Shown here one piece after another: positions 300 to 61,899 of a stretch of DNA of 64,000 nucleotides. The DNA is taken from positions 62,001 through 126,000 of the forward strand of contig NW_024882039.1 in the NCBI RefSeq assembly GCF_019059575.1, given 5' to 3'. The notes beneath the pieces were generated by a model. It saw nothing but the letters and a program-made list of their open reading frames with translations, had not been told where the DNA came from and searched no databases. The stretch is from Amphibalanus amphitrite (lineage: Eukaryota; Arthropoda; Thecostraca; Balanomorpha; Balanidae). Positions within the stretch are counted from its first letter, which is position 1, and each line of letters starts with the position of its first letter. The position numbers were made by a program, and so were the translations under genes.

Positions 300-1260
300 A
301 TTGTGTGATGCCTTCGGTAGGCCCCTCAAAATCACCTGTGTAGGGCCCTCAGGGCCGCCGGTTATGAAGCCTTTGGAGGCACTGGTGTGGGCCCTCACAG
401 GTACCGGTGTGAGGCTCTCGGATGCATTGGTGCGGGGTCCCCAGAGGTGCCACTGTGGGCCCTCAGAGGCGCCGGTGAGGGTCCTCACAGTTGCCGTTGT
501 GGGCCCTCAGAGACACTGCATGCAGTGTGGGGTTGTCACAGTCGGGTGTGGGACCCTTAGAGCTGCTGGCTCGAACCTTTACAGGCCGACAGGGGCTCTC
601 AAGAGGTCTGCGGTGCCTTCGGGAGCCCTGTGGAGTCCTTAGAGACCAGCAAGATACATTCAAACGCCAGTGGGGCCCTCAGAGTCGTCGGTGTGGGGCC
701 TTCAAAAGTCACCGGTGAGTGGCCGTCCGATGCGCAAGTCCCGTCTGAGGCCGTCAGAGGCTCCGGCGTTGAGCCCCCAGATCGCCGCCGATATGAAGCA
801 CTGGTTTCGGGACCTCATTCAAGGGTGCCGGTCGCACTCAGAGGTGGCAGTGTGGGTCCCTCAGCTAGGCACCGGTGCGAGGCCTTCACAGCCGCCGTTG
901 AGGGCCCTCGCAGGCGCCGTTGTGGGGGCCTTCAACCATTGGTTTAGGGGGTCATCGCAGGCGTTTGTGGAACCCTTGGAGCTGCTGGTCCCTGATAGGC
1001 CGGTAAGGGCCCGCAGAGGCCGGCAAGTAGCCCTCAGAGGTCGCCAATAGGCCCTGAGAAGCCGGCAAGGGGCCCTCAAAGGCCGACAAGGGACACTAAA
1101 AAGCAGGTGTGGGGCTCTTATGGATAGAAGTGTGGCTCTTCGGAGCACATAAGGTGTTCTTCAGAGCCCTGTGGGGCCCTTCTGAGTCGAAAGATGCCAA
1201 CGTGGACCCTCAGCCGCCAATTGGCGTCGCAAGGCCCCTCGGGCCCGAGAGGCCCCCTGA
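300..1260. repeat. GC-rich minisatellite, about 22-bp degenerate unit
   Basis: Degenerate tandem copies of a unit resembling GTGTGGGCCCTCAGAGGCGC recur across this stretch, with longer variants. The same sequence family, in the same order and with the same trailing segment, recurs at 34790-35590 inside a hAT-type element. The left edge of the window may therefore be part of another copy of that element. The overlapping frames on both strands are by-products of the repeat. Confidence 0.75.
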
Positions 1261-1600
1261 TCCGATGGGGGCACGTGCCCCCTGCTTCCCCCCCCCCCGA
1301 TGCAGATGGAGAATGCAATCGGCGGTGCGGGCACAACAATTGCAATTGTTCCCTCTCCCGTCGCGACGTCGCCCATCCGACCCATATCCCATGATTGTCA
1401 ACCCTTGGGCTCAGGTCGGCACTCGGCAATGTACTGGCAAGGAAATCAGCTTTAGGTGAGTAAAAAAGTTATTAAGAGTCATTGGTTGTCGTTACGTTCA
1501 GTAATAACAACTATACGGTGCCAAATGTACGCGACGTACAGCTTGGAGCCGGGCGCCGCCCGGTCTCCACCAGTGACGTCACGCTAATGCCTAGCGACCG
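1261..1600. other. Intergenic, no gene seen
   Basis: A C run near 1289-1299 is followed by mixed sequence without a supported gene. TTTAG|GTGAGT near 1451 resembles a splice donor, but no matching exon can be defined. Confidence 0.3.
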
Positions 1601-1858
1601 GTCCATTGGAAATCGCGGGATGATTCTACCTCTCTTATACGGCCTTGCTCTCTGCCATCCGCTGTCGTCGATGCGCCCTCAGTCAATAGCTTCAAGGCCA
1701 GGCTTGACGAACACTGGGCTCACGCCAAGTACACCATACATTCCAACGACTGATGCAGTGACACACTGACACAAAGCTCGTCACGTCCGGATCCAAGAGG
1801 CCAAAAGGCCTTCCTAAATTCCGCATTTTATAAGCATAAGTATAAGTATAAGTGTACA
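1600..1858 (+). mobile_element. LINE 3' end fragment (C-terminus of reverse transcriptase protein)
   Basis: A frame ending at the TGA near 1740 reads LPSAVVDAPSVNSFKARLD followed by EHWAHAKY. This is the conserved tail of many CR1/L2/RTE-type LINE proteins, where the LPS...VNSFK.RLD..W motif closes the open reading frame. About 90 bases of untranslated sequence follow and end in a short tandem AAGTAT tail at 1838-1858, typical of LINE 3' ends that lack poly(A). The element is severely 5'-truncated. The clade cannot be fixed from this fragment. Confidence 0.6.
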
Positions 1859-2417
1859 ATCATAGTTCCACCAGGGTACTGATTTGGGGCGTCGGTGTTG
1901 TGTTTTAGTGTAAGGGATATATTGTTTTGCTGTCTTGATGATGTGCTGTGTAGTCGGTGGTGCACATTTACGTCACCGACTAGTAAGCTGGAAGTGGTAA
2001 TACTGCTGATTGTTGATTCTAAATCGTGCAAGAAGTTTGGAAAACTGTTGATGGTGAAGCGTAAGAATTTGCAATTGTAATGAAATTCTGTGTTGCTTTG
2101 ATTTCGATAGCTTGAATGTCTAATGTACTATTTGTATCTGTTTCTCGATAAGGCAGATTGTTCTTAATGTACTTTCCTACGCCGCCTCTTATAATTCCTG
2201 AAACTAGTGTTGAGTCTTTTCTGATGAAAGTGAAGGATGTCAAATTTAGATTTTATGGGTCCCCGGGTTTTAGATGAGTTTCCTGAATAGTGAATACACA
2301 TAACAGATGTTTCTGATGCCAGAAGGGCCTGTTTAGCTTCCGCCCAGTTGCCCAGGATTCCCCTAGCATTCCACTGCAGCACTTTTACGTTATGGATGGC
2401 GTGGTGGGTCATCGTGA

Positions 2418-2437
2418 GTGTGTCTGTGTGTGTGTGT
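2418..2437. repeat. (TG)n microsatellite
   Basis: A short run of TG repeats within the LINE ORF1/ORF2 junction region. It is also present at 28783-28800 and 41817-41838 in the other unit copies with different lengths. Confidence 0.8.
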
Positions 2438-2831
2438 GCTCTACTGACGCTGGTTACGAAGGGTGCACGGGTGGGAGTCCGACGGAGCGGAGGCGGACTG
2501 GAGACGGCGTCTGGGCTCGCCCCGTGCCGGTGGCGTGGCTGGACTGCTGGAGGAGTCGGTCTGCTGGCTCTGGTCGGAATGATCAGAGGAAGATGGAGTT
2601 GGGTTGCGGAGTCTAGGATCCTCGGCGGAGGGCTGGGCGCGGGCACCCGTTCCGGAGGAGGATGGGGTTGGGTTGCGGAGCCGGGGGGCTCCGACGGCGG
2701 GCTGGCGGGGGGCACCCGCTCAACCGAGCTCCGAAGAGGAGCCGTCACTCGCAGTCGCAAGGTCCTTGGGCCTCGGGGGGACCTTCGGCGTGACACGCGC
2801 CGGGGTAGCCGGTCTGGGAGGAGGAGGAGGC

Positions 2832-4150
2832 TTGATATGATATGATATGTATTCTCGGTGATCAACACATACATCGTGGTTTTTCATACACCGCGTCGAT
2901 ATAAAACACACTAAAAGATCCTCAATAGGTACAGATAAAAGCAATGGGTTAAAAAAGCGAGCAAGACAAACAGTAAAAACTTACACGCACACATACAACA
3001 CTCCCACGCAGCCGATGACGTCACTCACAGTTTATCAGATGGTTTTTGAGCACGCGCTTAAAGTCGCCGGCACCCGTCTCCCGTACTGCCCGCGGTAACT
3101 CATTGTATGTACAGTGCAGGAGCAGAGTAGGCAAACATACGCTTCCCCAACTCGGTTCTGACTGATCTCGGTCTATATTGCCCCGCGCGACGCGTGTTGT
3201 GACAGTGTTCGTGCACGCTGATGTTTTCCGCCAACGAGAGTGGTTCACCACATGTGATCACTGCACGGAAGGCTGTGATGGTGCTATATTGGTAAAGCGA
3301 AGTGGCCCGTAGCCATCGTAAGTGGTTAAGCGTTCTGAGGAAAATCATCATGAGAAGTAAGGTCAGCCGGATCAAGATAATCATCAAGATAAGGTCAGCC
3401 GGATGCGCATACTGGCCCGTAGCCACTCGAGCGAGCGAATTGCATCGCTGATGTGGTCACGCTTGGATCGGCCTGTGACTGCTCTTGCACAGAAGTTTAT
3501 GATCTTCTGGATGCGACCACGAGCTTCTAAAGACGCATTTCCGTATACTGCCAGGTTTCTTCTTCTTCTATCGTTGGCTCCATCCATCGGATGCAGTGTC
3601 GAACTTGTCGACCGCCTTTCCGTTACGTTTAACTGTTTACTACGCCATCTGACATCAGTAGCGGACTCGCGACAAGACCAGAGCATTGACCAACATCACC
3701 ATGACGTCACGAGGTAGTCAATGGCGGGCAGCTGACAGACCCAAGAGTACGCCCGTGCATGTTCCGGTCACCTGGTCTAAATGCGGACGGAAGGTCATGT
3801 GGCGGTCCATCGTCAGCCCCAGATTACGCACCTTTGACGTTTCAGTGATCGTTTCGCCACCAAAATTTATTTGGATGGGCGGGAGGCCCTGTAGCAGCTG
3901 CTTTGTTCCGAATGTCACCAACTGCGTTTTTGCCGCATTAATTCTCATTTTCCGACTTGCAAACCATTTGCGAACTGTGACCAAAGTTGCCTCGAGTCGA
4001 CTAATGAGTTGTGGCAAGTCTTCCTTTTTTCCACAAACGGCGAGCTGGCATCATCAGCGTACTGGACTAGCCTGACAGATGGGTCTATGTGTAAATACAT
4101 ATCGTTAGAAAAAGTGCTAAACAGAAGGGGACCCAACGCTGTCCCCTGGT
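2832..4150 (-). mobile_element. 5'-truncated LINE (RT C-terminal half) inserted in the Jockey-like ORF1
   Basis: Minus-strand frames give ALGPLLFSTFSNDMYLHI and VQYADDAS (RT catalytic motif, about 4050-4070), then KMRINAAKTQLVTFG and NLGLTMDRHMTFRPHLD (3800-3960), LAVYGNASLEARGRIQKII (3500-3560) and the C-terminus LPRAVRETGAGDFKRVLK (3025-3090). The insertion starts in the middle of the PQG motif, so it is 5'-truncated, and ends at 2834-2848 in a short ATATG/TGATA tandem tail. Units 2 and 3 (about 29190 and 42235) lack it and read straight from GGAGGCTTGGCGTT into CAGGGGAGATAGGG, which gives an empty site. Frameshifts show that it is dead. The clade is uncertain. Confidence 0.75.
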
Positions 4151-5010: not shown

Positions 5011-5639
5011 TGGTGCGAGTGTTGTGATGGGTGGGCGTAAGTGGGTGTTGTGTGTGTAGTGTTGGCTGTGTGAGTTGTAGCAAAGCAAGTGAGTCAGGTG
5101 AGCGTGGGCGAGGCAGGCGAGCAAACTTACGTGAGACGAACGGTCGGCAGGGCACAACGGCGTTCTTCTTGTTGTGTTCTTGGTGGACAGTGGTCCGGGT
5201 TCCAAGCGAGAGCCCGGAGTAGTGCACTGTGCAGTAGCCGCCCTTGGTGCTGAGGATGCTCACGAGTGTCACCAACGTTAACAGCCGACAGCGCACTTTT
5301 TCCAAACGTTTATTGTTTTATTTTGTTCTTGGTTCATTTGACTGCTCTTACTTTGCTAAATTCTCAAATATATTAACTACATGTGTGTGCTGAAGAGTAA
5401 TGTACCTTCTTTTTTTCGTCGAGAGCCGTCTGAGACATGAATTGGAACAACACCGGTCTTCTTAAAGGGACTATCCCACCTTTAACCCGCGCCCTGCTGG
5501 GGGTCCTGGATTTCCACGCCCTGCTGGGGGGGGGGGGTGTTTGAACACCCCCCCCTTGTAACTCGGCTCCTGGGCCACGTAGCGATACGCGGAAGGCGGC
5601 GTTCGAAAGAGCGTAAAAAATAATGACGAAATCACTTCG

Positions 5640-6060
5640 GTCAATTTTTTGGTCAGGTCAAAGGTCAGGTCACCAGAGGTCATTGAAGGCAAAATTTCGC
5701 CGATTTCCAGGTCGAATGTCGAAAATTTCCAAGAAGCCAACGCATAACTCGGGAACCAATAGAGCTACAGCGCCGCGGAAAAGCGCATTCGATAGCCCTA
5801 TTAACGCTCTTTCTGAGTAATTCTCTCAGATTTGACCTAACGTCAACGGTTTTGCCTGCAGGGGGCAAAAACTGCAAAAATAGCCGATTTTTTCGAAAAG
5901 TTTTTCTGCAATAACTTTTGACCCAAACCTTGTACAAGCTTACTTTTACCGGCATCGTGTTCCTCTCGTCAAGACGCATCGAATGAACTATAACTTGACC
6001 TTGAAAGGTCAACTTGAAAATTTGACCTCAGGTCAAGGTCATGACCTGACCGGAAAGGGT
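5640..6060. promoter_or_regulatory. AGGTCA half-site array (left arm of TTAA element)
   Basis: Four AGGTCA words and one TGGTCA fall within about 40 bases at 5650-5687. About seven more in both orientations fall at 5993-6055, including TCAAGGTCATGACCT. This is the core half-site of nuclear receptors, and TCAAGGTCA is the extended form used by monomeric receptors such as FTZ-F1 and ERR. The arrays could equally be transposase-binding subterminal repeats. Function is inferred only. Confidence 0.45.
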
Positions 6061-6425
6061 CATGTTGCATATCAGTCGATCCGTATCGTCGAGCTGAACA
6101 CATCTAAGGCGTTTTCATCGCTCTAGCATGCCTCTATCAAAAGTTATTTGCGAAAAACTGTTAGATACCATTCGTATTCTTACCTGGTATTCTTACCTGG
6201 TGGGGTTTCCTCCACCTCGCAGCTCAGGTCAGGCAAGGGATGAGGTAGAAGGAAACCCGTGTACAAAGGGACACGCCAGTTTTCAAGATGAACAGGACGG
6301 TAAATACAACTACTCAACTCCAAAACTGGAAATGTGTGTCCTCAGTGTGTAATACAGGAATAATGCATCAATACGGAGTGTTTACATTTATATCACAATA
6401 GCATTATCAGTTCTAGTAGGTGTAA

Positions 6426-9326
6426 CTAAACATAATCATATAGCAGATCGCCTAACGTTCTGGCCAGCAGCCGTTTAAATGTGGATACATCTACTGAAGT
6501 CACGACATCATCTGGCAGGCTGTTCCACACAGTGACTCTACGTTGCGAGAAAGAGCGCTGACGCAGGTCAGATAGAGTGCGCGACACATGAATCTTTAAA
6601 CTATGTCCACGCGTTCCCCGATGTAGAGGCTGAACGAACATATTCCCAGGGGCAATTGAACTCTTCCCATGGAAAATTTTCCAGTATTCAATGAGATCAG
6701 CACGAAGAAGGCGCCCTTGCACTGAGAATAGGTCCAGTTCCTTCAGCCTCTCCAAGTAGGTCAGATTCTCAAGGCCTTCTATCTGCTTTGTCCATCTGCG
6801 CTGAACGCCTTCAAGCCTACGCATGTCGTCAATGAAGCCTGTACACCACACACAGGAAGCGTACTCCAGTATAGGTCTTATGTGCGTCTTAAGCAAAAAC
6901 AACATAAAGTCTCGAGAACGACATACCGTAGATTTGGCAAAATTATAAGACAATCCAGAAGCCTTATGAGCCACAGAAGCAATATGATCATGGAACTTTA
7001 ACGAGACATCAACTAATACACCTAAATCGCGTTGTGAACGGCACACAGGAAGTGGAGTTCCATCCATAGTATACATAGGAACAGACTGATTTTTAGATTT
7101 GCGGGAAAAACGTAACACAACGCACTTTTCCTTGTTCATCCTCAAGCCCCAAGACACAGAGGTCTTGTGCAGCACATCAATGTCATTCTGTAACACTCCA
7201 TCAGTGTGGGGGTTCGACATCGAGTTAGCAGTAACTGAAGCGTACAATTTTAAATCGTCGGCGAATATTTTGTAACAACAGGACAGTTTAGAACCTATGA
7301 AGTTAATATAAATTAAGAACAACAAAGGTCCCAACACGGAGCCTTGTGGAACACCGCTGTAGACATTTCTGGTGCTACTGTTAAGTCCATTAACACACAC
7401 TTGCATCAGACGGTCAGAGAGAAAAGAAGAGATCCATGATAAAAGTTGACCTTTAATGCCTATGAGTTCTAGTTTTGTAAGCAAAACTTGGTGGCATACT
7501 ACATCGAAAGCCTTTGAATAATCAAAAAGCACAAGATCCACTGTTTGCCCCGCATCTACTTTGGCTGAGATATCCTCATATACAAGAATAAGCTGCTCCA
7601 TCGTGGATCTACCCTGTCTAAACCCGAACTGGTGAACAGACAGAAGTTCGTTGGCTTCTAAATACGAGTAGATGTGCTTCACAATAAGGCGCTCCAACGT
7701 TTTGCAACACACAGCAGTGAGACTCACTGGCCTATAATTGAGAGGGTCATAGCGACTACCTTTCTTAAACAGCGGAACAACAGTGGATCTCTTCCAGGCG
7801 CTTGGAACTAAACCTTCCGAGAGCGATCGGGTGAAAATCACATAAATCGGGTAACTTAGGGTATCTGAGCAGTTTTTCAAGATCAGTGGGTGGAGGAAGT
7901 CGGGACCCATCGCGGAGTTCGGGTTTAAGGCGCGTAGATATGTGCGGACCTCCTCAACAGTAATTCGCAATGGTTCAATTTCACCGTCGTAGTACTGGTG
8001 AGGCTCCTGTGAAACAGGGACTTCTTTGACAAACACTGAAGCAAATGAAGAGACCAGAAATTCGCTCATAACTTTTGGGTCCGAAGAAATATGTCCATCC
8101 GCTTGCCGAAGTGGACCAACCGACATTGTTCCTACTTTCTTTGATCTTATGTAGGAGTGCAATGACTTAGGCGCTTCCCGAAATCTTTCAATCATAGAAT
8201 ATTCATACGACGCCTGAGATGAAACATTAAAATTTCTCACTCGCTTATTAACACCAGCAAACTGACTGTACGCATCACGAGCCGCAGAGGACGTCCGACC
8301 AACCACCGACCGAACCTTTTTATATTTCAACCAAGCTTCATGTCTTTCTTTAAGCAATCCTCTAGACGGTTTTGTTGGCCACGGTGGTTCACAGCGATTG
8401 TTCTTGTTTTGCAATGGCACATTCTCAACTACATGAGCAGTGACTATATCCCTAAATTTATCAAATGAGTCAGATGCATTCAAATACCTTAACTCGTGAT
8501 CCCAATCGACTACCCGTAGCTCTTCATTCAATCTCGTGTAATTTCCTTTATGCCAGGCGAACTTCTCAGGACCTGAGAACACTTCTGTTTTACTTTCGCT
8601 GAACACGTAGTCAAAAACTATGGGACAATGATCACAGGCTGGCATGGGAGCTTCGACAACTAAATTACCCATTCTATCATGCTCAGTAGTCAGTACAAGA
8701 TCTAGAATATTTCCAGACCTGGGGAAAGTGGGCTCTGAGACCCACTGCATTAGGCCAGCAGACTCAAATACATCCAAAAAAGCTCTCTCCATTGGAGGAA
8801 CGGAACCCACTGGTCGACTCTCAACTTCGCACCACTGAATATTAGGGAGATTTAGATCCCCAAGTATCACAATTTCCCTATTCTTTATCTGGAGTTTTAG
8901 GTCTTCTAAGAGCATTTCGTTTTCAGCTACACTATTTGATGGTGGCCTATAAACACACAGGAAATACACATTGTATTTGGTCAATTTAAACAGAAGGGCA
9001 TTTTCCATTGAGGTAGAAATTATATCTACTAACAAATTCTCATGTACATAAATGCAAACACCATGTTTCTCAACCGTACCAACGACATCCTTCCGGAAAA
9101 GTTGAAAATGGGGTATGTTTATGAAAGAGCTACTGATAGTTGAGGTTAGATGAGATTCAGTGACACAGACAACTTTCAAATCATGCTGGTTTATAAAATT
9201 GATGAGCGAACCCAGTTTATTACAAACACCATTTAAATTAACAGTGCAACATCTAACTGCCGTGTGTCGTGAGCTGGCAGACTGGCCTCCTAGTTTACCG
9301 GGGTGGTCTGGGACACTGTCCCTGCA
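6426..9326 (-). CDS. CR1 LINE ORF2: endonuclease-reverse transcriptase
   Basis: The protein nicks target DNA and copies the element RNA by target-primed reverse transcription. The apurinic-type endonuclease comes first: VNLNGVCNKL (about 9210-9245), CVTESH, CVYRPPS, ILGDLNLPNIQW, LDLVLTTEHD and CDHCPIVFDY. The reverse transcriptase follows: NYRPVSLTAV, QFGFRQGRST, LFDYSKAFD, SGVPQGSVLGPLLF and the catalytic FADD near 7253-7264. The tail WNSLPDDVVTSVDVSTFK ends at the TAG at 6426. Length (about 965 codons of open frame) is normal for CR1. No ATG lies upstream of the endonuclease catalytic core. The frame opens at 9326 inside the end of ORF1, one base back relative to it. Expression probably relies on termination-reinitiation or frameshifting (inference). 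No catalytic residue is visibly lost. Confidence 0.9.
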   Translation of the reverse strand, partial: CRDSVPDHPGKLGGQSASSRHTAVRCCTVNLNGVCNKLGSLINFINQHDLKVVCVTESHLTSTISSSFINIPHFQLFRKDVVGTVEKHGVCIYVHENLLVDIISTSMENALLFKLTKYNVYFLCVYRPPSNSVAENEMLLEDLKLQIKNREIVILGDLNLPNIQWCEVESRPVGSVPPMERAFLDVFESAGLMQWVSEPTFPRSGNILDLVLTTEHDRMGNLVVEAPMPACDHCPIVFDYVFSESKTEVFSGPEKFAWHKGNYTRLNEELRVVDWDHELRYLNASDSFDKFRDIVTAHVVENVPLQNKNNRCEPPWPTKPSRGLLKERHEAWLKYKKVRSVVGRTSSAARDAYSQFAGVNKRVRNFNVSSQASYEYSMIERFREAPKSLHSYIRSKKVGTMSVGPLRQADGHISSDPKVMSEFLVSSFASVFVKEVPVSQEPHQYYDGEIEPLRITVEEVRTYLRALNPNSAMGPDFLHPLILKNCSDTLSYPIYVIFTRSLSEGLVPSAWKRSTVVPLFKKGSRYDPLNYRPVSLTAVCCKTLERLIVKHIYSYLEANELLSVHQFGFRQGRSTMEQLILVYEDISAKVDAGQTVDLVLFDYSKAFDVVCHQVLLTKLELIGIKGQLLSWISSFLSDRLMQVCVNGLNSSTRNVYSGVPQGSVLGPLLFLIYINFIGSKLSCCYKIFADDLKLYASVTANSMSNPHTDGVLQNDIDVLHKTSVSWGLRMNKEKCVVLRFSRKSKNQSVPMYTMDGTPLPVCRSQRDLGVLVDVSLKFHDHIASVAHKASGLSYNFAKSTVCRSRDFMLFLLKTHIRPILEYASCVWCTGFIDDMRRLEGVQRRWTKQIEGLENLTYLERLKELDLFSVQGRLLRADLIEYWKIFHGKSSIAPGNMFVQPLHRGTRGHSLKIHVSRTLSDLRQRSFSQRRVTVWNSLPDDVVTSVDVSTFKRLLARTLGDLLYDYV

Positions 9327-10396
9327 CTATCCTGTGCTGAAGTTGCCTGAATGGCTTCAATGACGTTAGCCCTGGTGCTCTCAGCTACAAGTGTCTGAGG
9401 GTCACTCGCTGGGGCTGCCTGGACGTGTTGATTTTGATTTTGATTTTCCCGTCTAGCTTTGAGCTCCTGCCTTTGACTGTAAGTCAAGTCTCTGCGAATA
9501 TAGACATGATCAAACTGTGATCCCTTCAGTGACTTTGCCTTTTCAAGTACGATAGTTCTCTGGTCTAAGTCAAGGATTTTTGCCCTGCACAAATCAGGAT
9601 GGTCCTTTATCTTGACAATGTCAGTCAGAGTCACCCTTGATCCCATTACCTGTGAAGTTAGCTCACCAAACTCTGCAGCTATACCATCTGGAGTTCTGGC
9701 TGCAAGACCCTTGATGACTACAGAAAAACGCCTCTTTTCCCGCTCTCTAACTTCTAATACTTCTTTTCTGATCGCTGCCCGATAGCTTGGATCAGACAGG
9801 ACTGTGTTCCTGTTTGCAGGCAGAGGTGCAGCAGGTGGAGGAGTTTGTCTTTCGATGGATGGATGGGATGAGAGGTCGTTCTCTGGGGTGGAGCTGGAAG
9901 ATCTGTTAGAGATAGCCTCATCAAGTTTTGCTGCAAGTTTAGCCATCTCAGAAGTCAAACCTTTGACTGTCATGTAGAGCTGTTTCAAGCTGAGATCATC
10001 ATTTTCACCTTCACCTTGCTTGCTTCGAGTGACAGGTTTAGACCAGGCGCCTGAACCGGGGTTTACACGGCATCCAGTACACACAAACAGGACTGAGTTC
10101 TCATCTCGCAGAGAAGCTATCAGAGCAATAGCATTCTCAGGTAACCCCGTGCACATCTCAGAGGGACAGAACCAGGCGTTACATCGGTCACAGCCAATTG
10201 CGTTATCCCCCACAGAAACCTCACACATCCCACATGCAGAAGCACCCTGGTCGCTGCCATCATGCACCCTTCCAGCTTGAGCCTGGCTTTGAAGAGCCTT
10301 TCGAGCAGATCCAGTCTCTGCTCTCTGGGCCTGAGAGTTTGTGACAACACGTGTGCCATTCCCTGCAGCCCTGCCCCTGCCACTCCCTCTTGGCAT
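9290..10396 (-). CDS. CR1 LINE ORF1: PHD-like zinc finger, nucleic-acid-binding protein
   Basis: This is the RNA-binding chaperone-like protein that packages CR1 transcripts. I chose the ATG at 10394-10396 (MPRGSGRGRAAGNG). The open frame extends further but without another ATG. A basic N-terminus is followed by a C4HC3-like PHD finger (CGMCEVSVGDNAIGCDRCNAWFC begins near residue 55) ending VCTGC. A Ser/Pro linker, a charged helical stretch (EVREREKRRFSVVIKGL) and an RRM-like C-terminal half follow. About 368 residues, the usual size. PHD-type fingers in ORF1 are a known CR1 feature. The stop at 9290-9292 overlaps the open frame of ORF2. Confidence 0.85.
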   Translation of the reverse strand: MPRGSGRGRAAGNGTRVVTNSQAQRAETGSARKALQSQAQAGRVHDGSDQGASACGMCEVSVGDNAIGCDRCNAWFCPSEMCTGLPENAIALIASLRDENSVLFVCTGCRVNPGSGAWSKPVTRSKQGEGENDDLSLKQLYMTVKGLTSEMAKLAAKLDEAISNRSSSSTPENDLSSHPSIERQTPPPAAPLPANRNTVLSDPSYRAAIRKEVLEVREREKRRFSVVIKGLAARTPDGIAAEFGELTSQVMGSRVTLTDIVKIKDHPDLCRAKILDLDQRTIVLEKAKSLKGSQFDHVYIRRDLTYSQRQELKARRENQNQNQHVQAAPASDPQTLVAESTRANVIEAIQATSAQDSAGTVSQTTPVN

Positions 10397-11603
10397 AGTT
10401 CCTTGCAAGTTGTGTGTACACAATTGCAGTGACAGACGTATCACTCTTGGCCAATGTCCAAGAAGCAGTCCCAGCAGACACTCGGAAATCTGGCATGCAG
10501 GGTTGGAAGCAGGACAAGCAACTTAGTGGGCTGGCAAGCGAGGACAAGGAAGCTGCTCGGCACTGGGTCTCCCCACCGGTAAGCTCAAGTGCAGTTGCTC
10601 ATGCCGATGCAGCTGTGTCCCTAAGATGACCTCAGGGCATAAACAAGGGTCACGGACACCATTTTCAAGTTCAGTGTGTCTAAACCACTTGTAATTCGGT
10701 GTTTGGGAGTGTTTATAATGTCTTTCATCCAAAAGAGGCGCATTTCAATTTTCACCCATTGACTTATAATGGGGAGGTCGCAAAATTGACCTGACCTTAG
10801 GTCATCGATATCAAAATTCTGAGATATACATTTTGTACATGCTCTTGCTCTTAGCAATCGCTGAAAGTTTCAAAGCGATCGGTCACTCGGTGTAGCTATG
10901 ACAGACATTGAAAGTTTTTATGAGGTGAGGTCACTTCAAGTGACCTGGTGACCTGACCTTGAATGACCTTGGTCTGAAATTTTCACAACATGTGTAGAAT
11001 TGATGTATGATAAGGTGTACCAAAAACGGCGGCGCTCCGCGCCGCCGTTTTTGAGATATTCGCGAAAAACCACAAGGGGGGGGGGTGTTCAAACCCCCCC
11101 CCCCCAGCAGGGCGCGGGTTAACATGGGGTTTGAGTTGAGATAGCCAAGTTTGCGGCGAGGTTCAGAAACCACTATCTATCTAGGTTGCAACCCCCGCGG
11201 CCTCTTGGTGTTGAAGAAATTCGTTCCCTTCATTTGAAAATGGGCCTTGTACAAGGCCCTATCTTCAACATGGAGCGACCGTTAGTGTGACGTCACCTCG
11301 TTTAGTCATTTTGATTTAAATGGGTTTGTTCGTTGAAAAATCGCTTAAAACTTGGTCTGAACTTTGTTATGGTGCCTACAGAGTAAAAGGAATCAGCTTT
11401 ATGACAGTAATGTGGCCTGGGGAAGGAGGTAATTTTGGGCTGTGACGTCACATATTTGAAAGTTTGTGTTTGGAATATGGGAAGCCTAAGATGTTTAATG
11501 AAAAATAAATGCCAGAACCGTGTTCCTGGTCATCCAATCTATAAAGTCGGACACAATTTAACTGGTTTTAACAACATTTTAGAAGGTGGGATAGTCCCTT
11601 TAA

Positions 11604-20306: not shown

Positions 20307-20546
20307 CAACCTCAGATCCTGTGGAGGGCGTCTCGCGCCGCCCCCATCGCACTTGAGTTTGTCTTCGTCTTCGGGCCACAGAATGCTTCGCCGGCGCGGG
20401 CTGGCGACCCACGCCGGCTAGCGGTTACCTCCAGCTCTTGGCCGTCCGCAGGGCTGCGGGTCGTTGCCTGGGCTGCGCCACGAGGAGGCGGCTGGTGGGG
20501 ACTTGGGACGGCGGTTGGCCGCCCCTTTGCAGCCCGTTGGCCGCCC

Positions 20547-21006
20547 CTAAGCAGCCAGATTTGTTTGCCGGTTTTCCATCTTGCAGGTTTGGCACCTGCC
20601 GTCCGCTCCTTGCTTAGCGCCCTGGATCTGTAGGGCGACCAGTTTCTGCTTCGTCCGGTACCTCCGGGTATTCGGCCCGTCATGGTCCTCGTCTTCCTGC
20701 TCGGACAGGTGCGACCCTGACTGCCAGTTGAATGGAACACCTAGAGGATCATATTGGTGTTCTCTACGACCAGTCTTGACCTTCCAGGCTGGCAGTCTGT
20801 AAAGCACCCTTCAGCACCCGGTTAAACCTCTCCACGGCACCCGCTTCCCTCGGGTGGTAGGGGGTAACACGTATATGTTTCACCCCGACCCTGCTCAGGT
20901 ACTCGGTGAAATCACGGGACGTAAATGCCGTGCCATTGTGATTGTCCGACACGAGTTCCTCCGGACAGCCTTCCCTGGCCACTACGGTCTCCGTGAAATC
21001 TATCAC
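20547..21006 (-). pseudogene. Ty3-like retrotransposon integrase fragment, unit copy 1
   Basis: The frame contains VSDN (catalytic Asp region), GTAFTSRDFTEYLSRVGVKH, IRVTPYHPREAGAVERFNRV and LKGALQTASLEGQDWS, then YRLPAWKVKTGRREHQYD. This is the second half of a DDE integrase core: D in SDNGTAF and E in GAVERFNR. It resembles Ty3/Gypsy or integrase-derived genes. Only about 80 residues of the core survive, with no protease or RT nearby. Copy 1 has a small insertion in the SDN-GTAF region (SDNHNGTAF). Equivalent fragments are at 38900-39312 and 51122-51521. Confidence 0.65.
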
Positions 21007-25485: not shown

Positions 25486-26390
25486 CCCTCGCCCGCACAT
25501 GGGGGGGGGGGTGGTTGCCACCCCCCAGGCAGTCTTTCTGCTCTGCACTAAACATTTTTAGAGCTAGAAGGCTGATTTTTCGTATAGCTGCTCGTCTATC
25601 CTTTCTTGATGTCCACTGAAAATTTCAAGTTTCTGTGATTTTTGGTTTCGGAGATATGACCTTGTTTTTCAGGTCATGTCATGACCCAAATGGCCAATTC
25701 TCAACATCTTGCGTTTGCCATGGGCCTTGTGAGCTTTTGACACCCTGATTTCGGCCTTTTTTGCCAGTCTTACCTCCCACCTCTCATGGAACATGTTGTT
25801 CGACGATGTACAGGGGTCAAGGTCAGGGTCAAGGTCAACCTAGGTCATCTAAGATAATTGCGTTTTAGGCAAGCTGAATTTACTTTTTGTGAAGTTTTTT
25901 GACTGCATTTTTGTTAAAAGCTTCTCAGATCATGATTTCATGTGATATGGACCCAAAAACAATCGGTGCACACATCAGTATACACACAGACACACACAGA
26001 CATACAAACACATATAATTGACCTTGACCTAATTTGACCTGAAATGACCTCAGCAGCAAAATTCTGGTCGGATAGTGTGACAAAGAGGTTCTAGCTGGCT
26101 TGGCACCAGAAAACAGCATCGTCATCGGTATTTGATAAGCAGCGCACTTGATATCCAACGGTGACCCAAAACAGCAACATTTTTTAGTTTGACCTGACTT
26201 GGAAGGTCAATGACTGACCTGAGAAGGTAAAACTGGGTATCATTGGATTCGTCTCTTACCAAAAATTTTTTTTGGTCTTTTCTGCTAAGCTCTATCTCTA
26301 ACAGGAACGAAATGGCGCGGGGGGGGTGGCAACCCCCCCCCCCCCCATGCGCGTTCTAGGATGGGAAAATGGCATGTGCGGGAGAAGGTT
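25486..26390. mobile_element. G-tract TTAA element (piggyBac-like ends)
   Basis: The left end TTAA-CCCTCGCCCGCACATG is followed by a G run and TGGTTGCCACCCCCC. The right end shows the mirror G/C tract (26319-26347) and CATGTGCGGGAGAAGG before TTAA (26391-26394), with a second degenerate copy of the terminal word between them. AGGTCA/TGACCT words cluster at 25805-25850, 26016-26055 and 26190-26220. About 905 bases, no coding potential. Confidence 0.65.
25800..26225. promoter_or_regulatory. AGGTCA half-site array
   Basis: GTCAAGGTCAGGGTCAAGGT with CAACCTAGGTCA at 25810-25850, four TGACCT words in about 40 bases at 26019-26056, and three more at 26190-26218. Same motif class as in the related elements. 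Role inferred only. Confidence 0.4.
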
Positions 26391-37960: not shown

Positions 37961-38899
37961 ATAAAATACTGGATACACTGGTACTACTTATCGTACAGCT
38001 CGTCATACACCCCGTGAAAGCAAGCATTGTATTATTTTATGGGTAGAGCATATTCATCTACAAAATAGACTCCTTTGTGATGTATAGCGCGTAGATGTGC
38101 TCGCATTGACATAAATTTATCGTGAAAATTAATGTGTGAAGAAAAAATGTTCTACAAAATATGGTTCCTACGCCAGCAAGCAATGCATATGTTAGAAAAA
38201 TCCAGGTGTCTATTGCATTTTATTGTCATAAAGGTGTCACAAGCGTAGTACTACTTTGTAACGTTAAATCCCGCCGGGACGATGCCCGGCGCCCACCATG
38301 GGCTCGGGGCCGAGGGTGGCTGATCGTCTAAGTATGAAGCTACCCTACAAAAATTACCGCATGTAAGTCGGTCAAGTGGTTGCTGAGATGCAAAAGCGTT
38401 CGCACGCTCGACCGGCTGGCTGCTCATACTCAGAAATTTCCATTAGTCTACGAAAGACTACGATCGCTTCGGCTGCTCCGTAACAAACCACAATTACCGT
38501 TTCGTATACGCCGAGATATCCCTTTAGCATTACCCTAGTCGTGCAGGAAGCATGGCACGTGATCTTTCCTGCACTGTTGTCCGGCACGGGTTGATGACCT
38601 ACAGTTCTGGTGATTTTATAATAAAATACTTAAGCCCGCGCCCCGCTGGGGGGGGGGGTCTCCACGCCCCCCAACCTTAGATCCTGTGGAGGGCGTCTCG
38701 CGCCGCCCCCATCGCACTTGAGTTTGTCTTCGTCTTCGGGTCACAGAATGCTTCGCCGGCGCGGGCTGGCAACCCACGCCGGCTAGCGGTTACCCTCCAG
38801 CTCTTGGCCGTCCGCAGGGCTGCGGGTCGTTGCCTGGGCTGCGCCACGAGGAGGCGGCTGGTGGGGACTTCGGACGGCGGTTGGCCGCCCCTTTGCAGC

Positions 38900-39312
38900 C
38901 CGTTGGCCGCCCCTAAGCAGCCAGATTTGTTTGCCGGTTTTCCATTTTGCAGGTTTGGCACCTGCCGTCCGCTCCTTGCTTAGCGCCCTGGATCTGTAGG
39001 GCGACCAGTTTCTGCTTCGTCCGGTACCTCAGGGTATTCGGCCCGTCATGGTCCTCGTCCTCCTGCTCGGACGGGTGCGCCCCTGACTGCCAGTTGAATG
39101 GAACACCTTGAGGATCGTATTGGTGTTCTCTACGACCAGTCTTGATCTTCCAGGCTGGCAGTCTTTAAAGCACCCTTCAGTACCCGGTTAAACCTCTCCA
39201 CGGCACCCGCTTCCCTCGGGTGGTAGGGGGTAACACGTATATGTTTCACCCCGACCCTGCTCAGGTACTCGGTGAACTCACGGGACGTAAATGCCCTGCC
39301 ATTGTCCGACAC
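38900..39312 (-). pseudogene. Ty3-like integrase fragment, unit copy 2
   Basis: Contains SDNGRAFTSREFTEYLSRVG, VKHIRVTPYHPREAGAVERF and NRVLKGALKTASLEDQDWS. The SDNG word is intact here, unlike copy 1. It stays open for only about 60 residues before the downstream WKIKTG part in a shifted frame. Confidence 0.6.
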
Positions 39313-43444: not shown

Positions 43445-44635
43445 CCCGCGCCTCAGTGGCGGTCTCGGCCAACTTCGCCCTAGTGGGGGGGGGGGGGGGC
43501 ATATGTTACCAGTTACCACCCACCTCTAACTCAAAAACTAAGAGGGCTAGAAAGACGCGGTATAAAGCAGTCGATAGCCCTCAATGCGTACGTTTGAAAG
43601 TATTTCGGTCATTTTTCATCTTAGAGCAATATTGGGGTCACCAGAGGTCATCAAAGGTCAAAATTTGCCAATTGTCATTATATTTTTCAGAAAACATGCC
43701 GCTATCTCATGAACTATGGTAGCTAGAAAAACGCATGGAAAAGCATTCGATAGCTTTTGAACTTTTCTTTTGAAAAGGTTATTATCAATATTGACCTCAG
43801 GTCAACGGTTTAGCCTCCAGAGGGCAAAAACTCCAAAAATAGCTGTTTTTACGAAAAGTGTTTTTCGACAATAACTTTCGACTCCAAAAAGCCACGACAT
43901 TTCTATTGCCAGAATCGTGTTCCCCTCGCCGAGACGCGTCGAATGAACTATAATTTGACTTTGAAAGGTCAACTTGAAAATTGAACCTCAGGTCAAGGTC
44001 ATGACCTTACCGGAAAAGGTCATGTTGCAAATCAGTCGATGCGTCTCAAAAAGACAAACACAATGAGACCATCCCCAGCGTTCTATCTCTTTCCAATCGC
44101 GAGTTATTGGCAAACAACTGTTTGTAGCCTCAAGTGACCTCGGATGACCTGTCTAGAGGCTATCAGCAAAAATGACACCTTGGTCATCACGAGTGGACTA
44201 AATCATTGTGATTCTGAAATATTTGGACTGTTCCGATGCGTACACACGGATCTAGAGGTATTTTCATTTTTCTCCATTGACTTGTAATGGAAAGGTCACG
44301 CCGCTGACCTGACCTTAGGTCACGGATATAAAAAATCCGAGATATACAAATTGTAGGCGCCCATAACAGCATGCAATCCACCAAGCTTGAAACCTTTCTG
44401 ACAAACACTGCAGGCTGGACATGATTGCAAACTTTTCTTTAGGCTTGGTCAGTTAACTTGAGCTGGTGACCTGACCTGACATGACCTGGGGTCAAAAATT
44501 TCACACATTATCCAAAATTGATGTACCAAAAGCTAGCCCAAGCGGCGCGGCGCTACGCGCCGCGGTTTTTTATTTACACGCAAAAAACGCGACAGGGTGG
44601 TAACATATGCCCCCCCCCCCCCACTGGGGCGAAGG
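43445..44635. mobile_element. G-tract element with TTAT target duplication (piggyBac-like ends)
   Basis: The left end CCCGCGCCTCAGTGG is followed by a second terminal word CTTCGCCCTAGTGGGG and a 14-G run. The right end is the C run and CCACTGGGGCGAAGG. The flanks are TTAT (43441-43444, 44636-44639). Units 1 and 2 lack it and read through TTCTTTTTTCGTCGAGAG. The interior shares TCAGGTCAAGGTCATGACC and CAGTCGATGCGT with the element at 5486-11118. Some 18 AGGTCA/TGACCT words are present. No protein. Confidence 0.8.
43630..44500. promoter_or_regulatory. AGGTCA half-site array
   Basis: Clusters lie at 43635-43660, 43790-43807, 43970-44025, 44134-44155, 44293-44325 and 44465-44495, in both orientations and with variable spacing, including TCAAGGTCATGACC. 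This is the densest example in the window. Function not shown. Confidence 0.45.
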
Positions 44636-50165: not shown

Positions 50166-51121
50166 CCATAAAATACTGGATACACTGGTACTATGCGTGC
50201 AGCTCGTCATACACCCCGTGAAAGCATGCAGTGTATTATTTTATGTTTAGAGCATATTCATCTACAAAATAGACTCCTTTGTGATGTATAGCGCGTAGAT
50301 GTGCTCGCATTGACATAAATTTATCGTGAAAATTAATGTGTGAAGAAAAAATGTCCTACAAAATATGGTTCCTACGCCAGCAAGCAATGCATATGTTAGA
50401 AAAATCCAGGTGTCTATTGCATTTTATTGTCATAAAGGTGTCACAAGCGTAGTACTACTTTGTAACGTTAAACCCCGCCGGGACGATGCCCGGCGCCCAC
50501 CAGGGCTCGGGGCCGGGGGTGGCTGATCGTCTAAGTATGAAGCTACCCTACAAAAAGTACCGCATGTAAGTCGGTCAAGTGGTTGCTGAGATGCAAAAGC
50601 GTTCGCACGCTCGACCGGCTGGCCGCTCATACTCAGAAATTTCCATAAGTTTACGAAAGACTATGATCGCTTCGCCTGCTCCGTAACAAACCACAATTAC
50701 CGTTTCGTATACGCCGAGATATCCCTTTAGCATTACCCTAGCCGTGCAGGAAGCATTGCACGTGATCTTTCCTGCACTGTTGTCCGCCACGGGTTGATGA
50801 CCTACAGTTCTGGTGATTTTATAATAAAATACTTTAGCCCGCGCCACGCTGGGGGGGGGGGCTCCACGCCCCCCAACCTCAGATCCTGTGGAGGGCGTCT
50901 CGCGCCGCCCCCCCCCCCCATCGCACTTGAGTTTGTCTTCGTCTTCGGGCCACAGAATGCTTCGCCGGCGCGGGCTGGCAACCCACGCCGGCTAGCGGTT
51001 ACCCTCCAGCTCTTGGCCGTCCGCAGGGCTGCGGGTCGTTGCCTGGGCTGCACCACGAGGAGGCGGCTGGTGGGGACTTCGGACGGCGGTTGGCCGCCCC
51101 TTTGCAGCCCGTTGGCCGCCC

Positions 51122-51521
51122 CTAAGCAGCCAGATTTGTTTGCCGGTTTTCCATTTTGCAGGTTTGGCACCTGCCGTCCGCTCCTTGCTTAGCGCCCTGG
51201 ATCTGTAGGGCGACCAGTTTCTGCTTCGTCCGGTACCTGAGGGTATTCGGCCCGTCATGGTCCTCGTCCTCCTGCTCGGACGGGTGCGCCCCTGACTGCC
51301 AGTTGAATGGAACACCTTGAGGATCGTATTGGTGTTCTCTACGACCAGTCTTGACCTTCCAGGCTGGCAGTCTGTAAAGCACCCTTCAGTACCCGGTTAA
51401 ACCTCTCCACTGCACCCGCTCCCCTCGGGTGGTAGGGGGTAACACGTATATGTTTCACCCCGACCCTGCTCAGGTACTCGTTGAAATCACGGGACGTAAA
51501 TGCCGTGCCATTGTCCGACAC
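51122..51521 (-). pseudogene. Ty3-like integrase fragment, unit copy 3
   Basis: SDNGTAFTSRDFNEYLSRVG, VKHIRVTPYHPRGAGAVERF and NRVLKGALQTASLEGQDWS, followed by WKVKTGRREHQYDPQGVPFN in a shifted frame. Equivalent to the fragments in copies 1 and 2. Confidence 0.6.
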
Positions 51522-56515: not shown

Positions 56516-56610
56516 TACTAACTGTAACATATAGATAATGCTGATGTGACATGACACATGACATCGTGGTCTATTCAGTGCTTCTTCTTGCATGTTCACC
56601 AGTTCAGTGA

Positions 56611-57760
56611 TCAGTGATCACATCTACTCAGCACATCGCTCACCCACGACCACGTGGCTAACTCTGAGTGCCACACACCGACCTCCGGCACCTTGCGGAC
56701 ATCGCTTTCGTCTTGTTGACACTGTTGCTTGTGCTTCTTGTACCCGATGCCGTGCTGGTTGACAGTGCAGAGGTAACAGCGGGCGCGCTGTGCCTCCGTC
56801 CGCTGGGGTGCTGCAGGCGGTGCCGTTTTCTCCTTCAGGATGACCTCAACGGCCAGCCTGGTCTTCATCACCATGTGGTCGGTGGGCCGGCTGCAGACGA
56901 GCGACAGGCCGAGCCCTCGTCGGAAGGCCTTCCTTCCACCATGTCGGACGTCCGCGAACTGGCCTGTGGCCTCGGAGAGGACCGCCCAGCTGTTGAGTGC
57001 CGCCACGTCAAGTATGAAGAAGAAGATAGCCATCGGCCACCTCCTTGTCGAGACTGCAAGTGTATGTGTGTCCAGCATCTGGTCGATGGTGTCGATGCCG
57101 CCCTTGGTGGAGTTGTAGTTGAGCATCACCTCGGGTTTCTTCTTTCCAGCCACTCCTGCGTCCACTAGTGGCTGATCATGCTGGGTGGATAGCATCAGGA
57201 CATTCTTGCCCCTTTTCTTGTTGTAGAAGGCCACCATGATGCCGCGCAACCAGTAGAACTGCGTGCTGTACTGCTCAGTGCTCGCGGCCGGTCGTTGTTT
57301 TTGCTTCCTCTGGCAGGTCCACACGGTTCGCCTGAGCCGTGCCGACGTGGGTGAGGTTTTGCTCCAGAAGTTCTTCACAGAGAGTGATGGTAGTGTAGAA
57401 TCGGTCGGCAGTCACGTTCCGGCCGCTGTTCTTGAACGGCGCCACCAGATGCTTCACGATGCTCGTTGCGCCAGTCACATGCAGGTCGGGGTCTGGATCT
57501 TGGGCGACACCGGCGTACGGCAGCATACGAAGCATGTAGCGGCTTCGATCATCGGCGAGATTACGTATCAGCAGACCGTACTTCGATGGCTTGTTCGGCA
57601 TGAAGGTTATGAAGCCGCAGCGCCCTCTGAAGCTACGGAGGGTCCCATCGACCGTAATGCAGTCGGATGGGTTGTAGTGGCGCGTCAGCGTCTCTCTCGT
57701 TAAACTCGCTGTCGCCCATCACCTCTCGGATGGCCGAAAACTTGTCTTTTAAAACTTGTC
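56611..57760 (-). pseudogene. piggyBac-type transposase, decayed
   Basis: PiggyBac enzymes excise DNA and reinsert it at TTAA. Reading leftwards: YNPSDCITVDGTLRSFRGRC (first catalytic Asp, about 57610-57670), FITFMPNKPSKYGLLIRNL, then NVTADRFYTTITLCEELLEQ (second Asp). After a frameshift come VMLNYNSTKGGIDTIDQMLD (third Asp in GGIDTIDQM, about 57080-57135), RRWPMAIFFFILDVAALNSW and a C-terminal Cys/His segment RCYLCTVNQHGIGYKKHKQQ with C. The three aspartates survive. At least two frameshifts and loss of the N-terminal half before the TTAA MITE make it inactive. It is the only transposase in the window able to explain TTAA duplications. Confidence 0.8.
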
Positions 57761-57784
57761 ATCTAAGGTCATCTAATGTTTTAA

Positions 57785-58280
57785 AGGGACTATCCCACCT
57801 TTAACATGGGGTTTGAGTTGAGATAGCCAAGTTTGCGGCGAGGTTCAGAAACCACTATCTATCTAGGTTGCAACCCCCGCGGCCTCTTGGTGTTGAAGAA
57901 ATTCGTTCCCTTCATTTGAAAATGGGCCTTGTACAAGGCCCTATCTTCAACATGGAGCGACCGTTAGTGTGACGTCACCTCGTTTAGTCATTCTGATTTA
58001 AATGGGTTTGTTCGTTGAAAAATCGCTTAAAACTTGGTCTGAACTTTGTTGTGGTGCCTACAGAGTAAAAAGAATCAGCTTTATGACAGAATGTGGCCTG
58101 GGGAAGGAGGTAATTTTGGGCTGTGACGTCACATATTTGAAAGTTTGTGTTTGGAATATGGGAATCCTAAGATGTTTAATGAAAAATAAATGCCAGAACC
58201 GTGTTCCTGGTCATCCAATCATTAAAGTCGGGCACAATTTAACTGGTTTTAACAACATTTTAGAAGGTGGGATAGTCCCT
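57785..58280. mobile_element. Intact TTAA MITE (reference copy)
   Basis: The ends AGGGACTATCCCACCTT and AGGTGGGATAGTCCCT lie between TTAA (57781-57784) and TTAA (58281-58284). 496 bases. Nearly identical to the split copy at 5466-11599, and it provides the empty TTAA (57801-57804) for the nested element there. It contains a perfect palindrome GGGCCTTGTACAAGGCCC near 57925-57942. It sits in the 5' region of the piggyBac relic. Confidence 0.9.
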
Positions 58281-58287
58281 TTAAAAC

Positions 58288-58520
58288 AGCAGGTCATCTA
58301 AGGTCAGCTCCCTGACCTGACCATGACCTTGACACCCACCTGTATCGGACAGACATCATTTTACATGCTGAAATCCCAACAATTACGAAAAGACTGCAAA
58401 CGCACGGCTAATGTGCCCTGACATACGTCGAATCACGATTCCGGCCTGACAAGGTCTCGAGAAAGAGGTCACAGGTCAAAGGTCATTGGTCATGGGAATT
58501 GGTCCCGGCAGGGTCATGAA
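58288..58520. promoter_or_regulatory. AGGTCA half-site array upstream of the piggyBac transposase
   Basis: AGGTCATCTAAGGTCAGCTC and CCTGACCTGACCATGACCTT at 58289-58331, then AGAGGTCACAGGTCAAAGGT with CATTGGTCA at 58464-58495. This places the array in the presumed 5' regulatory region of the transposase. Role inferred. Confidence 0.45.
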
Positions 58521-58662
58521 ATTTTAAGGGTAGGTGTAACATTGATTAAAACGAGGGTACTGAAAGTTTAATCACGATCAGCCGCTCTTTTGCGCGAGTT
58601 ATTTGCGAGAAACCAAGGGGGTCCGTTCGACCCCCCCCCCCCCCTATACGGGCGAGGGCTAA

Positions 58663-59388: not shown

Positions 59389-59675
59389 CAGTGCTGCCAG
59401 ATTTGGAGGATTTCCGCAAATCTGGAGGATTTTGAACTATTTGCGGACAAATTTCGCTTTTGGAGGATTTTTGATTCTGGAAGAAAATCTGGAGGATTTG
59501 TCGTCCAATTATTATATTCAATTTCATGGAAAAATATAACACATTCAAGACTAAAAAGGCATTTTCCTGCCCAGCGTCACCCTACCCGTTAATCTACCAA
59601 TAGGATTTGGAGGAATCTGGAGGATTTTTTGTAACTGATCTGAAGGATTACAGCCTTCCCCATCTGGCAGCACTG
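59389..59675. mobile_element. hAT-type MITE
   Basis: 287 bases with inverted ends CAGTGCTGCCAGAT and ATCTGGCAGCACTG and an exact 8-bp duplication CCCGCGGC (59381-59388, 59676-59683). The interior is a set of GGAGGATTT words (about eight). No coding potential. Confidence 0.9.
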
Positions 59676-59742
59676 CCCGCGGCCCGCGCCGCAGGCCGGC
59701 TCCCTGCTTCTCTCTGCTGATGGCTTACCCAGGGTATATTGA

Positions 59743-59778
59743 GTCCACCTCCCGGGCTTACCAGCCCGGGAGGTGGAC
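59743..59778. other. Perfect 16-bp hairpin
   Basis: Arms GTCCACCTCCCGGGCT and AGCCCGGGAGGTGGAC around the loop TACC. It is not followed by a U tract. Without other context it is a structure of unknown role, possibly in an element's RNA. Confidence 0.75.
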
Positions 59779-61860: not shown

Positions 61861-61899
61861 AGTTTTGTATTTTTTCCAGAAAATAAATAACTTACTGTA

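Follow-up and report, generated by a model that had tools for sequence, protein, structure and literature searches.

AGGTCA arrays phased at about 168 bp in TTAA-type elements of a piggyBac-superfamily clade in Amphibalanus amphitrite

The stretch of Amphibalanus amphitrite DNA analysed here (the window, 64,000 nucleotides of contig C542 in the 807.6-Mb assembly) raises the question why several of its TTAA elements are filled with AGGTCA, the half-site that serves as a landing site for hormone (nuclear) receptors. A sequence-only reading had delimited four elements, E1 to E4, and had proposed that they either spread hormone-responsive sites or carry AGGTCA as the recognition repeat of their transposase. 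That the elements are related and their arrays genuine was upheld, and the choice between hormone sites and a transposase repeat was the right question. The analysis supports the assignment of E1 to E4 to TTAA-type elements of a piggyBac-superfamily clade. Three points are added here: the AGGTCA words sit in clusters with a period of about 168 bp, roughly the spacing of nucleosomes, a LINE lies within E1, and the doubled ends are of a piggyBac nature.

The clade is marked by TTAA-type targets, CCC ends and the 27-bp left/right offset of Trichoplusia ni (T. ni) piggyBac. The features found in the window are collected in Table 1. The boundaries read for E1 (5486-11118) were correct and those for E2 and E3 held within a few bases, whereas E4, placed at about 56600-58658, is not one element. 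Three of the four elements (E1, E2 and E3) are non-autonomous; E4 represents the right arm of one that retains a remnant of the transposase gene. The non-autonomous elements are short, lack a transposase, have inverted ends and occur in high copy with uniform length, as MITEs do, their non-coding status being judged from length and the list of open reading frames only.

Table 1. Features of the AGGTCA elements and of the sequences nested with them, in window coordinates
Feature	Coordinates	Strand	Remarks
TTAA target duplicate, left of E1	5482..5485	.	
E1 left arm	5486..6175	+	CCCGCGCC end, doubled terminal word with 27-bp shift, G12/C8 palindrome, AGGTCA clusters
LINE-type retrotransposon in E1	6176..10619 (about)	-	ORFs 9290-10444 and 6426-9179
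E1 right arm	10620..11118	+	AGGTCA clusters, G10/C12 palindrome
TTAA target duplicate, right of E1	11119..11122	.	
E2	25486..26388	+	about 903-905 bp, non-autonomous; cluster centres 178, 345, 545 and 717 from left end
E3	43445..44635	+	1191 bp, non-autonomous; six clusters; TTAT on both sides (flanks read by eye)
E4 transposase remnant	56546..57749	-	piggyBac-type; DDE_Tnp_1_7 in frame 56611-57378
TTTAAAGGGACTATCCCACC MITE nested in E4	57781..58284	+	unrelated to E4
E4 right arm	58290..58658	+	AGGTCA clusters, G14 tract, CCCTCGCCCGTATAG end; right flank CTAA

The 5.6 kb that E1 occupies in the window were rejected as its true size, since other copies measure about 1190 bp. The insert is absent from the E1 copies L002-L008 and the LINE at about 6176-10619 is therefore foreign to the TTAA element. 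Its ORF 6426-9179 contains the RVT_1 and Exo_endo_phos_2 domains; the LINE has two long frames of 917 and 384 aa, and on its 3' side lies a tail of repeated GTATTCTTACCTG. The first 575 bp of the left arm of E1 are 98-99% identical in the scored copies. An empty site for E1 is provided by the MITE copy at 57781-58284, to which the joined flanks of E1 match with 98.4% over 505 bp and with one TTAA. A second TTTAAAGGGACTATCCCACC MITE copy (5467-5485 with 11119-11598) hosts E1, and its TTAA is the landing site of E1. When the flanks of E2 were joined, 40 of 40 scored places gave a single alignment, an empty-site length within 9 bases and 93-99% identity. E3 is 65-68% identical to E1. The TTAT at E3 and the CTAA to the right of E4 are variants of the TTAA target.

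E4 as one intact element was rejected: it consists of a right arm and a transposase remnant with the nested MITE between them, and no left arm was found within the 64-kb window. The nearest solved structure to the remnant is the T. ni piggyBac transposase 6x67 (E 8.1e-16). A fuller relative with the same ends was found at C702:41300-45357, examined without its extreme left tip. It contains a broken DDE_Tnp_1_7 transposase gene with AGGTCA arrays on both sides, and by eye the transposase reading frame has a Cys/His-rich C terminus. A relative on C53 was considered as an independent insertion and rejected, because the similarity extends, in pieces, beyond the end of the element (window 58290-62309); it therefore adds no independent evidence and is probably the same insertion as E4, present as an allele or a duplication. 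A minisatellite-like stretch with low-complexity frames on both strands lies beside an E4-type transposase remnant at C53:659421-661083 and in L069/L050.

The ends had been described as starting with CCC and carrying a G run that pairs with a nearby C run. CCC-type termini were present at E1, at the left ends of E2 and E3 and at the right end of E4, but not at the right end of E3, which reads CCTTCGCC, or at that of E2, which is mutated. The terminal word is doubled in three of the four elements, as had been claimed (E1 left, E3 left and E2 right), and in all three it is shifted by 27 bp against the opposite end, the shift of E2 being measured with its end taken at 26388. These doubled words are the known left/right asymmetry of piggyBac. 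In T. ni piggyBac, the right-end bp 34-63 are almost identical to the left-end bp 7-35, and the cysteine-rich domain of the transposase binds a tip-adjacent palindrome (excerpts of PMC7351741).

The hairpins were evaluated by single-strand DNA folding against shuffles. A clear hairpin was obtained at 3 of 7 ends, namely at both E1 ends (z -3.55 and -2.59) and at the left end of E2 (-3.34). The signal was weak at the right ends of E2 (-1.43) and E4 (-1.82), and in E3, which has a G tract without a long matching C run, no hairpin was found at either end (+0.63 and -0.99). The 18-G run at 58701-58718 falls outside E4. The G-tract palindrome sits where the domain-binding palindrome of piggyBac would be, and its loop sequence varies among the families.

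The excess of AGGTCA (counted with TGACCT on both strands) was then measured against shuffled sequence, the check that the sequence-only reading had asked for. The arms contain 13-19 words per kb: 12 in the left stretch of E1 at 5486-6270 (15.3/kb), 9 in its right stretch at 10600-11118 (17.3/kb), 12 in E2 (13.3/kb), 18 in E3 (15.1/kb) and 7 in the right arm of E4 at 58290-58658 (19.0/kb). In the remaining 54.2 kb of the window 35 were counted (0.65/kb). Each stretch was shuffled 500 times with dinucleotides preserved, which gave means of 0.2-0.6 and maxima of 2-4, against 7-18 observed; for the E1 left stretch the mean was 0.32 and the maximum 3. Over its full length E1 contains 24 words (4.3/kb), against a shuffle mean of 3.64 and a maximum of 12, a low density that is due to the foreign insert in its middle. 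Among the hexamers seen at least 8 times, none is more strongly enriched in the arms than AGGTCA (58 words, 23-fold relative to the rest of the window). In the 326 kb examined, its density was 15.08/kb inside the 108 kb that match the representative families and 1.07/kb elsewhere.

Nine representative stretches were used for the further analysis: the two C702 arms and E1, E2, E3, E4N, L057, L014 and L032. Their independence is limited, since two come from C702, E1 is related to E3, and E4N shares 64% identity with the right arm of C702. Their 9,065 bp hold 144 AGGTCA (3.0 expected), 23 GGGTCA (4.0 expected), 21 ACGTCA (2.8) and 9 AGTTCA (4.0). Outside AGGTCA words, GGGTCA was found 18 times in clusters and 4 times in spacers, which are 2.9 times longer. 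Among the RGKTCA half-sites AGGTCA and GGGTCA exceed expectation and AGTTCA hardly does (4 in clusters, 5 in spacers); GGGTCA, the other canonical receptor half-site, is the best-supported cluster-enriched variant. ACGTCA, which is not a receptor half-site, is enriched in clusters too (13 against 8 in spacers). The other one-letter variants occur 4 times or fewer in clusters, and some unrelated words are cluster-enriched (clusters/spacers: AGCAAA 6/0, AAGTGA 6/1 and ACTTGA 8/3).

Neighbouring words are most often arranged as DR-1 (24) and DR4 (16), which places them 5 and 10 bp apart, the DR-1 pairs overlapping by one base; DR0 (7), DR1 (6), IR1 (4) and IR0 (2) are rarer. No consistent rule for the orientation of the words relative to the ends was apparent by eye in the representatives. 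The extended monomer site TCAAGGTCA, proposed as a feature of the family, accounts for only 15 of the 144 words, 7 of these lying within AGGTCAAGGTCA, and therefore does not characterise the family.

The words of the representatives are mostly found at about 150-210, 310-380, 450-580 and 630-745 bp from the ends, and so on. Their vector strength peaked at 168 bp (R = 0.62), whereas clusters of the same sizes placed at random gave a maximum of 0.43 between 140 and 220 bp (0 of 1000 trials reached the observed value). The gaps without words between the clusters measured 100-171 bp in 30 of 31 cases, the other being a gap of 450 bp in L014. The first word was located 143-200 bp from the end, the left arm of C702 being counted from the edge of the examined piece, except at the right ends of L057 (103 bp) and L032 (667 bp); L032 has no AGGTCA word in its right half. 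When similar ends were grouped by their tip motif into 16 clusters, words were absent from the first 100 bp in all of them; 11 had words at 100-200 bp, 2 only further in and 3 none within 600 bp inside.

The spacing was also present in sequence that had been held out. There, 32 clusters with at least two words gave six neighbouring distances under 620 bp, and all six fell at 120-220 bp. An end facing the cluster within 1300 bp was not recognisable for 16 of the 32, at random positions an end was found in 22.5%, and for 27 of the 32 clusters the edge of the locus is no more than 1300 bp away. Among the clusters with three or more words, 8 of 18 had a facing end within that distance. That every array belongs to a recognisable element was thus not borne out, as 16 of 32 held-out clusters had a facing end.

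Genome-wide, same-strand pairs of AGGTCA were counted together with pairs of the reversed word as a control. At 153-183 bp we counted 293,304 + 291,050 = 584,354 pairs (control 3,864 + 3,363 = 7,227), at 237-267 bp 37,797 + 36,447 = 74,244 (control 3,468 + 2,922 = 6,390) and at 321-351 bp 172,779 + 146,236 = 319,015 (control 3,410 + 2,798 = 6,208). The excess over the control is 81-, 12- and 51-fold at 168, 252 and 336 bp, respectively, a multi-word cluster being counted many times in these numbers. The off-phase pairs at 237-267 bp are still above the control, partly through minisatellites and other arrays. Contig C1, which had not been used to find the period, has 13 forward ends listed up to 253 kb. 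The first listed word is 132-191 bp inside in 7 of them and at 223 bp in 1, and 5 have no listed word within 400 bp; these lists are confined to words that have a partner on the same strand at the distance searched.

Sequence features related to nucleosomes were examined in 36 spacer stretches of at least 95 bp (4,722 bp, element-end stretches included). The AA/TT/AT/TA steps showed a spectral peak at 10.5 bp, and 2 of 300 matched genomic samples reached this power at 10.0-10.5 bp. The peak is broad, with similar power from 9.5 to 11.5 bp, and one chosen period was tested. None of 300 mononucleotide shuffles, a weak control, reached it. The A/T content by phase between the clusters showed no clear linker/core pattern (0.51-0.62).

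A simple tandem duplication could also generate a regular period. Therefore, an all-against-all comparison of 44 spacers was made for both strands; of its 1,892 scores, 39 exceeded the maximum of the shuffled null. Within the same element, this was the case for 3 of 93 pairs (one direct in E3, the others inverted in E1 and E3), and simple tandem duplication as the whole cause of the period is accordingly unsupported. In this comparison, E2, E4N, both C702 arms and other representatives had no detectable homology among their own units. Ten spacers from E1, E3, L057 and L014 form one connected homology group. Some of the units of about 168 bp duplicate one another and part of the period may therefore be inherited. 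Spacing may persist after the sequence has diverged, and its presence among units without detectable homology suggests, but does not prove, a constraint on length.

In five alignments between families of 62-71% identity, 41 of 71 words of the first member were intact in the second, compared to 431 of 2,887 other hexamers. The retention was strong for E1/E3 (13 of 20 words, 120 of 1,003 hexamers; Fisher p about 6e-8) and for L014/L032 (12 of 15 and 50 of 433; p about 6e-9). It was weaker for E4N/C702 right (8 of 15 and 137 of 669), L057/E4N (4 of 11 and 47 of 317) and C702 left/E4N (4 of 10 and 77 of 465), with p values of 0.006, 0.07 and 0.07; the pairs share members and overlapping hexamers are not independent tests. 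Between families the palindromes near the tips differ while AGGTCA stays constant, and the position of a cluster stays while the order and strand of the words within it change. Provided that most members encode no protein, the preferential survival of the words suggests that they serve transposition or chromatin.

The 12-base end TTAACCCKCGCC occurs 34,791 + 34,961 = 69,752 times in the assembly, and its reversed-letter control 62 + 55 = 117 times. With two ends per element, and with mutated ends being missed, we infer roughly 35,000 elements. Some gene clusters occur on two contigs (for example C8 and C391), so that both haplotypes are probably present in parts of the assembly and the genome-wide counts may be up to doubled. 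In agreement with an arthropod host, the cuticle domain PF00379 gave 150 scored matches among 705 candidates. The families of E1, E2 and E3 each have at least about 40 scored copies with 93-99% identity, beside the copy in the window. Head-to-tail copies of one element, a few bases apart, were seen at C721:157782-159597, C293:606609-608961 and L006 46-2426, and look as if one copy had landed in the TTAA of another.

Three other transposase-bearing elements were inspected for AGGTCA. L072 has 5 words in 4.7 kb and L073 has 1 in 4.8 kb. The inner piggyBac of L071 (973-3653) has CCCATTAGTGCCCA ends, a 604-aa open frame and 2 words in 2.7 kb, and is nested in an AGGTCA element (313-4131) with clusters at 472-504, 630-663 and 771-825 on the left and at 3941-3978 on the right. 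None of the three has arrays of its own, and as far as they show, the arrays are not general to piggyBac here. Among the transposase matches listed, 11 places have a 604-aa frame and 258.2-258.7 bits.

How the clusters function was considered with several explanations. We tentatively favour, at somewhat less than even confidence, that a host factor of the nuclear-receptor class binds the linkers between positioned nucleosomes and thereby aids transposition. In this reading, a piggyBac-superfamily clade with many non-autonomous members of about 0.9-1.2 kb has spread massively in this arthropod genome. The word-free spacers would be wrapped in positioned nucleosomes with the AGGTCA clusters as exposed linkers. 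A host factor whose specificity is fixed, most probably a member of the nuclear-receptor class, would occupy these linkers in the germ line and keep the element open and phased, which would raise its use by the transposase. In autonomous copies the factor would also raise the transcription of the transposase, and the genome-wide spread of receptor half-sites would be a by-product. The host genome has 77 matches to zf-C4, the nuclear-receptor DNA-binding domain, some of them single exons. The word excess, the 168-bp period, the retention of words between families, the spectrum of variants and the 10.5-bp peak speak for this model, and the C. elegans MITE CERP2, with CELE2 to some extent, is a precedent for factor motifs paired with a periodicity linked to nucleosome positioning. 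The host factor is favoured because the word is constant while the tip palindromes vary, because the arrays start only beyond the minimal ends that the transposase binds in piggyBac and because the best-supported variant, GGGTCA, is a receptor half-site. Against it stand the exceptions L032, L014, L057 and 3 of the 16 end clusters, and the enrichment of ACGTCA and of unrelated words in the clusters. Further, two receptors could hardly fill both words of a DR-1 pair that overlap by one base, which also counts against receptors. The duplicated units, the breadth of the 10.5-bp peak, the A/T content without a linker pattern and the held-out clusters lacking a facing end weigh against the model as well. 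The wider proposal that the elements are mobile chromatin templates, in which each copy would install positioned nucleosomes with linkers recruiting a transposition-aiding receptor factor, and the 168-bp AGGTCA grid formed by tens of thousands of copies would be readable by hormone signalling, is possible but rather doubtful.

The same arrays might instead be read by the clade's own transposase. AGGTCA would then be its subterminal recognition repeat, bound for instance by the C-terminal cysteine-rich domain, and the spacing would let the ends synapse across nucleosomes. We rank this explanation close behind the host factor, as plausible though somewhat less probable, since the arrays persist in non-autonomous copies and transposases often bind at subterminal repeats. 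Such copies need no transcription, arrays flank the C702 transposase remnant on both sides, and the three piggyBac transposase elements with different ends lack arrays, as expected for a word of one clade. The transposases of piggyBac and piggyBat bind repeated motifs near the ends, subterminal ones in piggyBat (excerpts of PMC7351741 and PMC11707139). However, none of the 16 clusters of ends has AGGTCA in its first 100 bp, and the known bound ends are short compared to the arrays, with minimal piggyBac ends of 35 and 63 bp (excerpts of PMC7351741) and a left-end footprint of about 120 bp for piggyBat (excerpts of PMC11707139). In most non-autonomous elements the arrays span most of the roughly 1 kb, and the place of piggyBac's domain-binding palindrome is held by a G-tract palindrome that varies between families, whereas AGGTCA is invariant. 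An unlikely explanation is that the arrays are a frozen relic of an ancestral satellite-like unit of about 168 bp, duplicated in one ancestor and inherited, with AGGTCA having no present role. The homology of a few units (the three within-element pairs and the ten-spacer group) and the recent, high-copy nature of the families would fit it, but the words outlast other hexamers between families, strongly in two pairs and weakly in three, and the cluster position is steady despite the changed order and strand of the words. Finally, the very dense occurrence at the elements might reflect host-side insulating or silencing sites that were acquired after insertion or favoured by the host. This we regard as very improbable: the families share words at homologous places and the scored copies are 93-99% identical over their length, and the words were therefore present before the elements spread.

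Transposons carry single regulatory motifs or subterminal repeats; Ac, En/Spm and Tol2 have subterminal motif arrays, and piggyBac has a further internal left-end site. In the present clade, motif clusters at a near-constant, nucleosome-scale interval were kept while much of the intervening DNA diverged, in copies that would, by the end counts, number in the tens of thousands. Should the clusters be linkers, the elements would amount to a replicated natural experiment on how the spacing of motifs shapes chromatin, and the fitness of a transposon would depend on the hormone-receptor machinery of its host. Should the transposase read them instead, their ends would have an architecture that is new for piggyBac, which is widely used as a tool. 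No description of such AGGTCA-array piggyBac elements was found among the openly accessible papers covered, as judged by titles and the starts of abstracts.

Several known systems share parts of this organisation. T. ni piggyBac and its MITEs have the TTAA-type targets, CCC ends, 27-bp asymmetry, tip-adjacent palindrome and a related transposase in common with our elements; ours differ by the palindrome with a G tract and by phased AGGTCA clusters over most of their length, neither of which is mentioned for piggyBac in the excerpts of PMC7351741. The coral CMITEs are piggyBac-related TTAA MITEs with tandem copies, in which the interior is more conserved between families than are the terminal repeats, but they are about 100 bp long with one conserved 75-bp block, and the excerpts of PMC2872659 mention no AGGTCA array or periodicity. 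The C. elegans MITE CERP2, and to some extent CELE2, carries motifs for a host factor (HIM-17) and a TT periodicity of about 10 bp tied to nucleosome positioning, and these MITEs are a source of germline promoters; in contrast to our elements, the motif pairs are in inverted repeats, motif and factor are different, and no multi-cluster 168-bp array is described in the excerpts of PMC9757741. Alu has likewise multiplied AGGTCA-type receptor sites, with 90% of 108,582 human DR2 motifs lying in Alu, although it is another kind of repeat whose DR2 sites (retinoic-acid response elements) arose largely by CpG deamination, with no phased clusters in the excerpts of PMC1785376.

Other repeats were also noticed. 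A very dense AGGTCA tract with a period of about 10 bp lies at C1:1237935-1238515, and a AGGTCAGCCGGGCGT minisatellite recurs at C1:826691-827138, 1312110-1312557 and 1773674-1773984. In the window, a 22-bp tandem unit GTTGGCCGCCCCTAAGCAGCCC is present at 20514-20556, 38880-38922 and 51089-51131; near-identical 134-aa frames follow the units at 38880 and 51089, and the three places look like several copies of another repeat.
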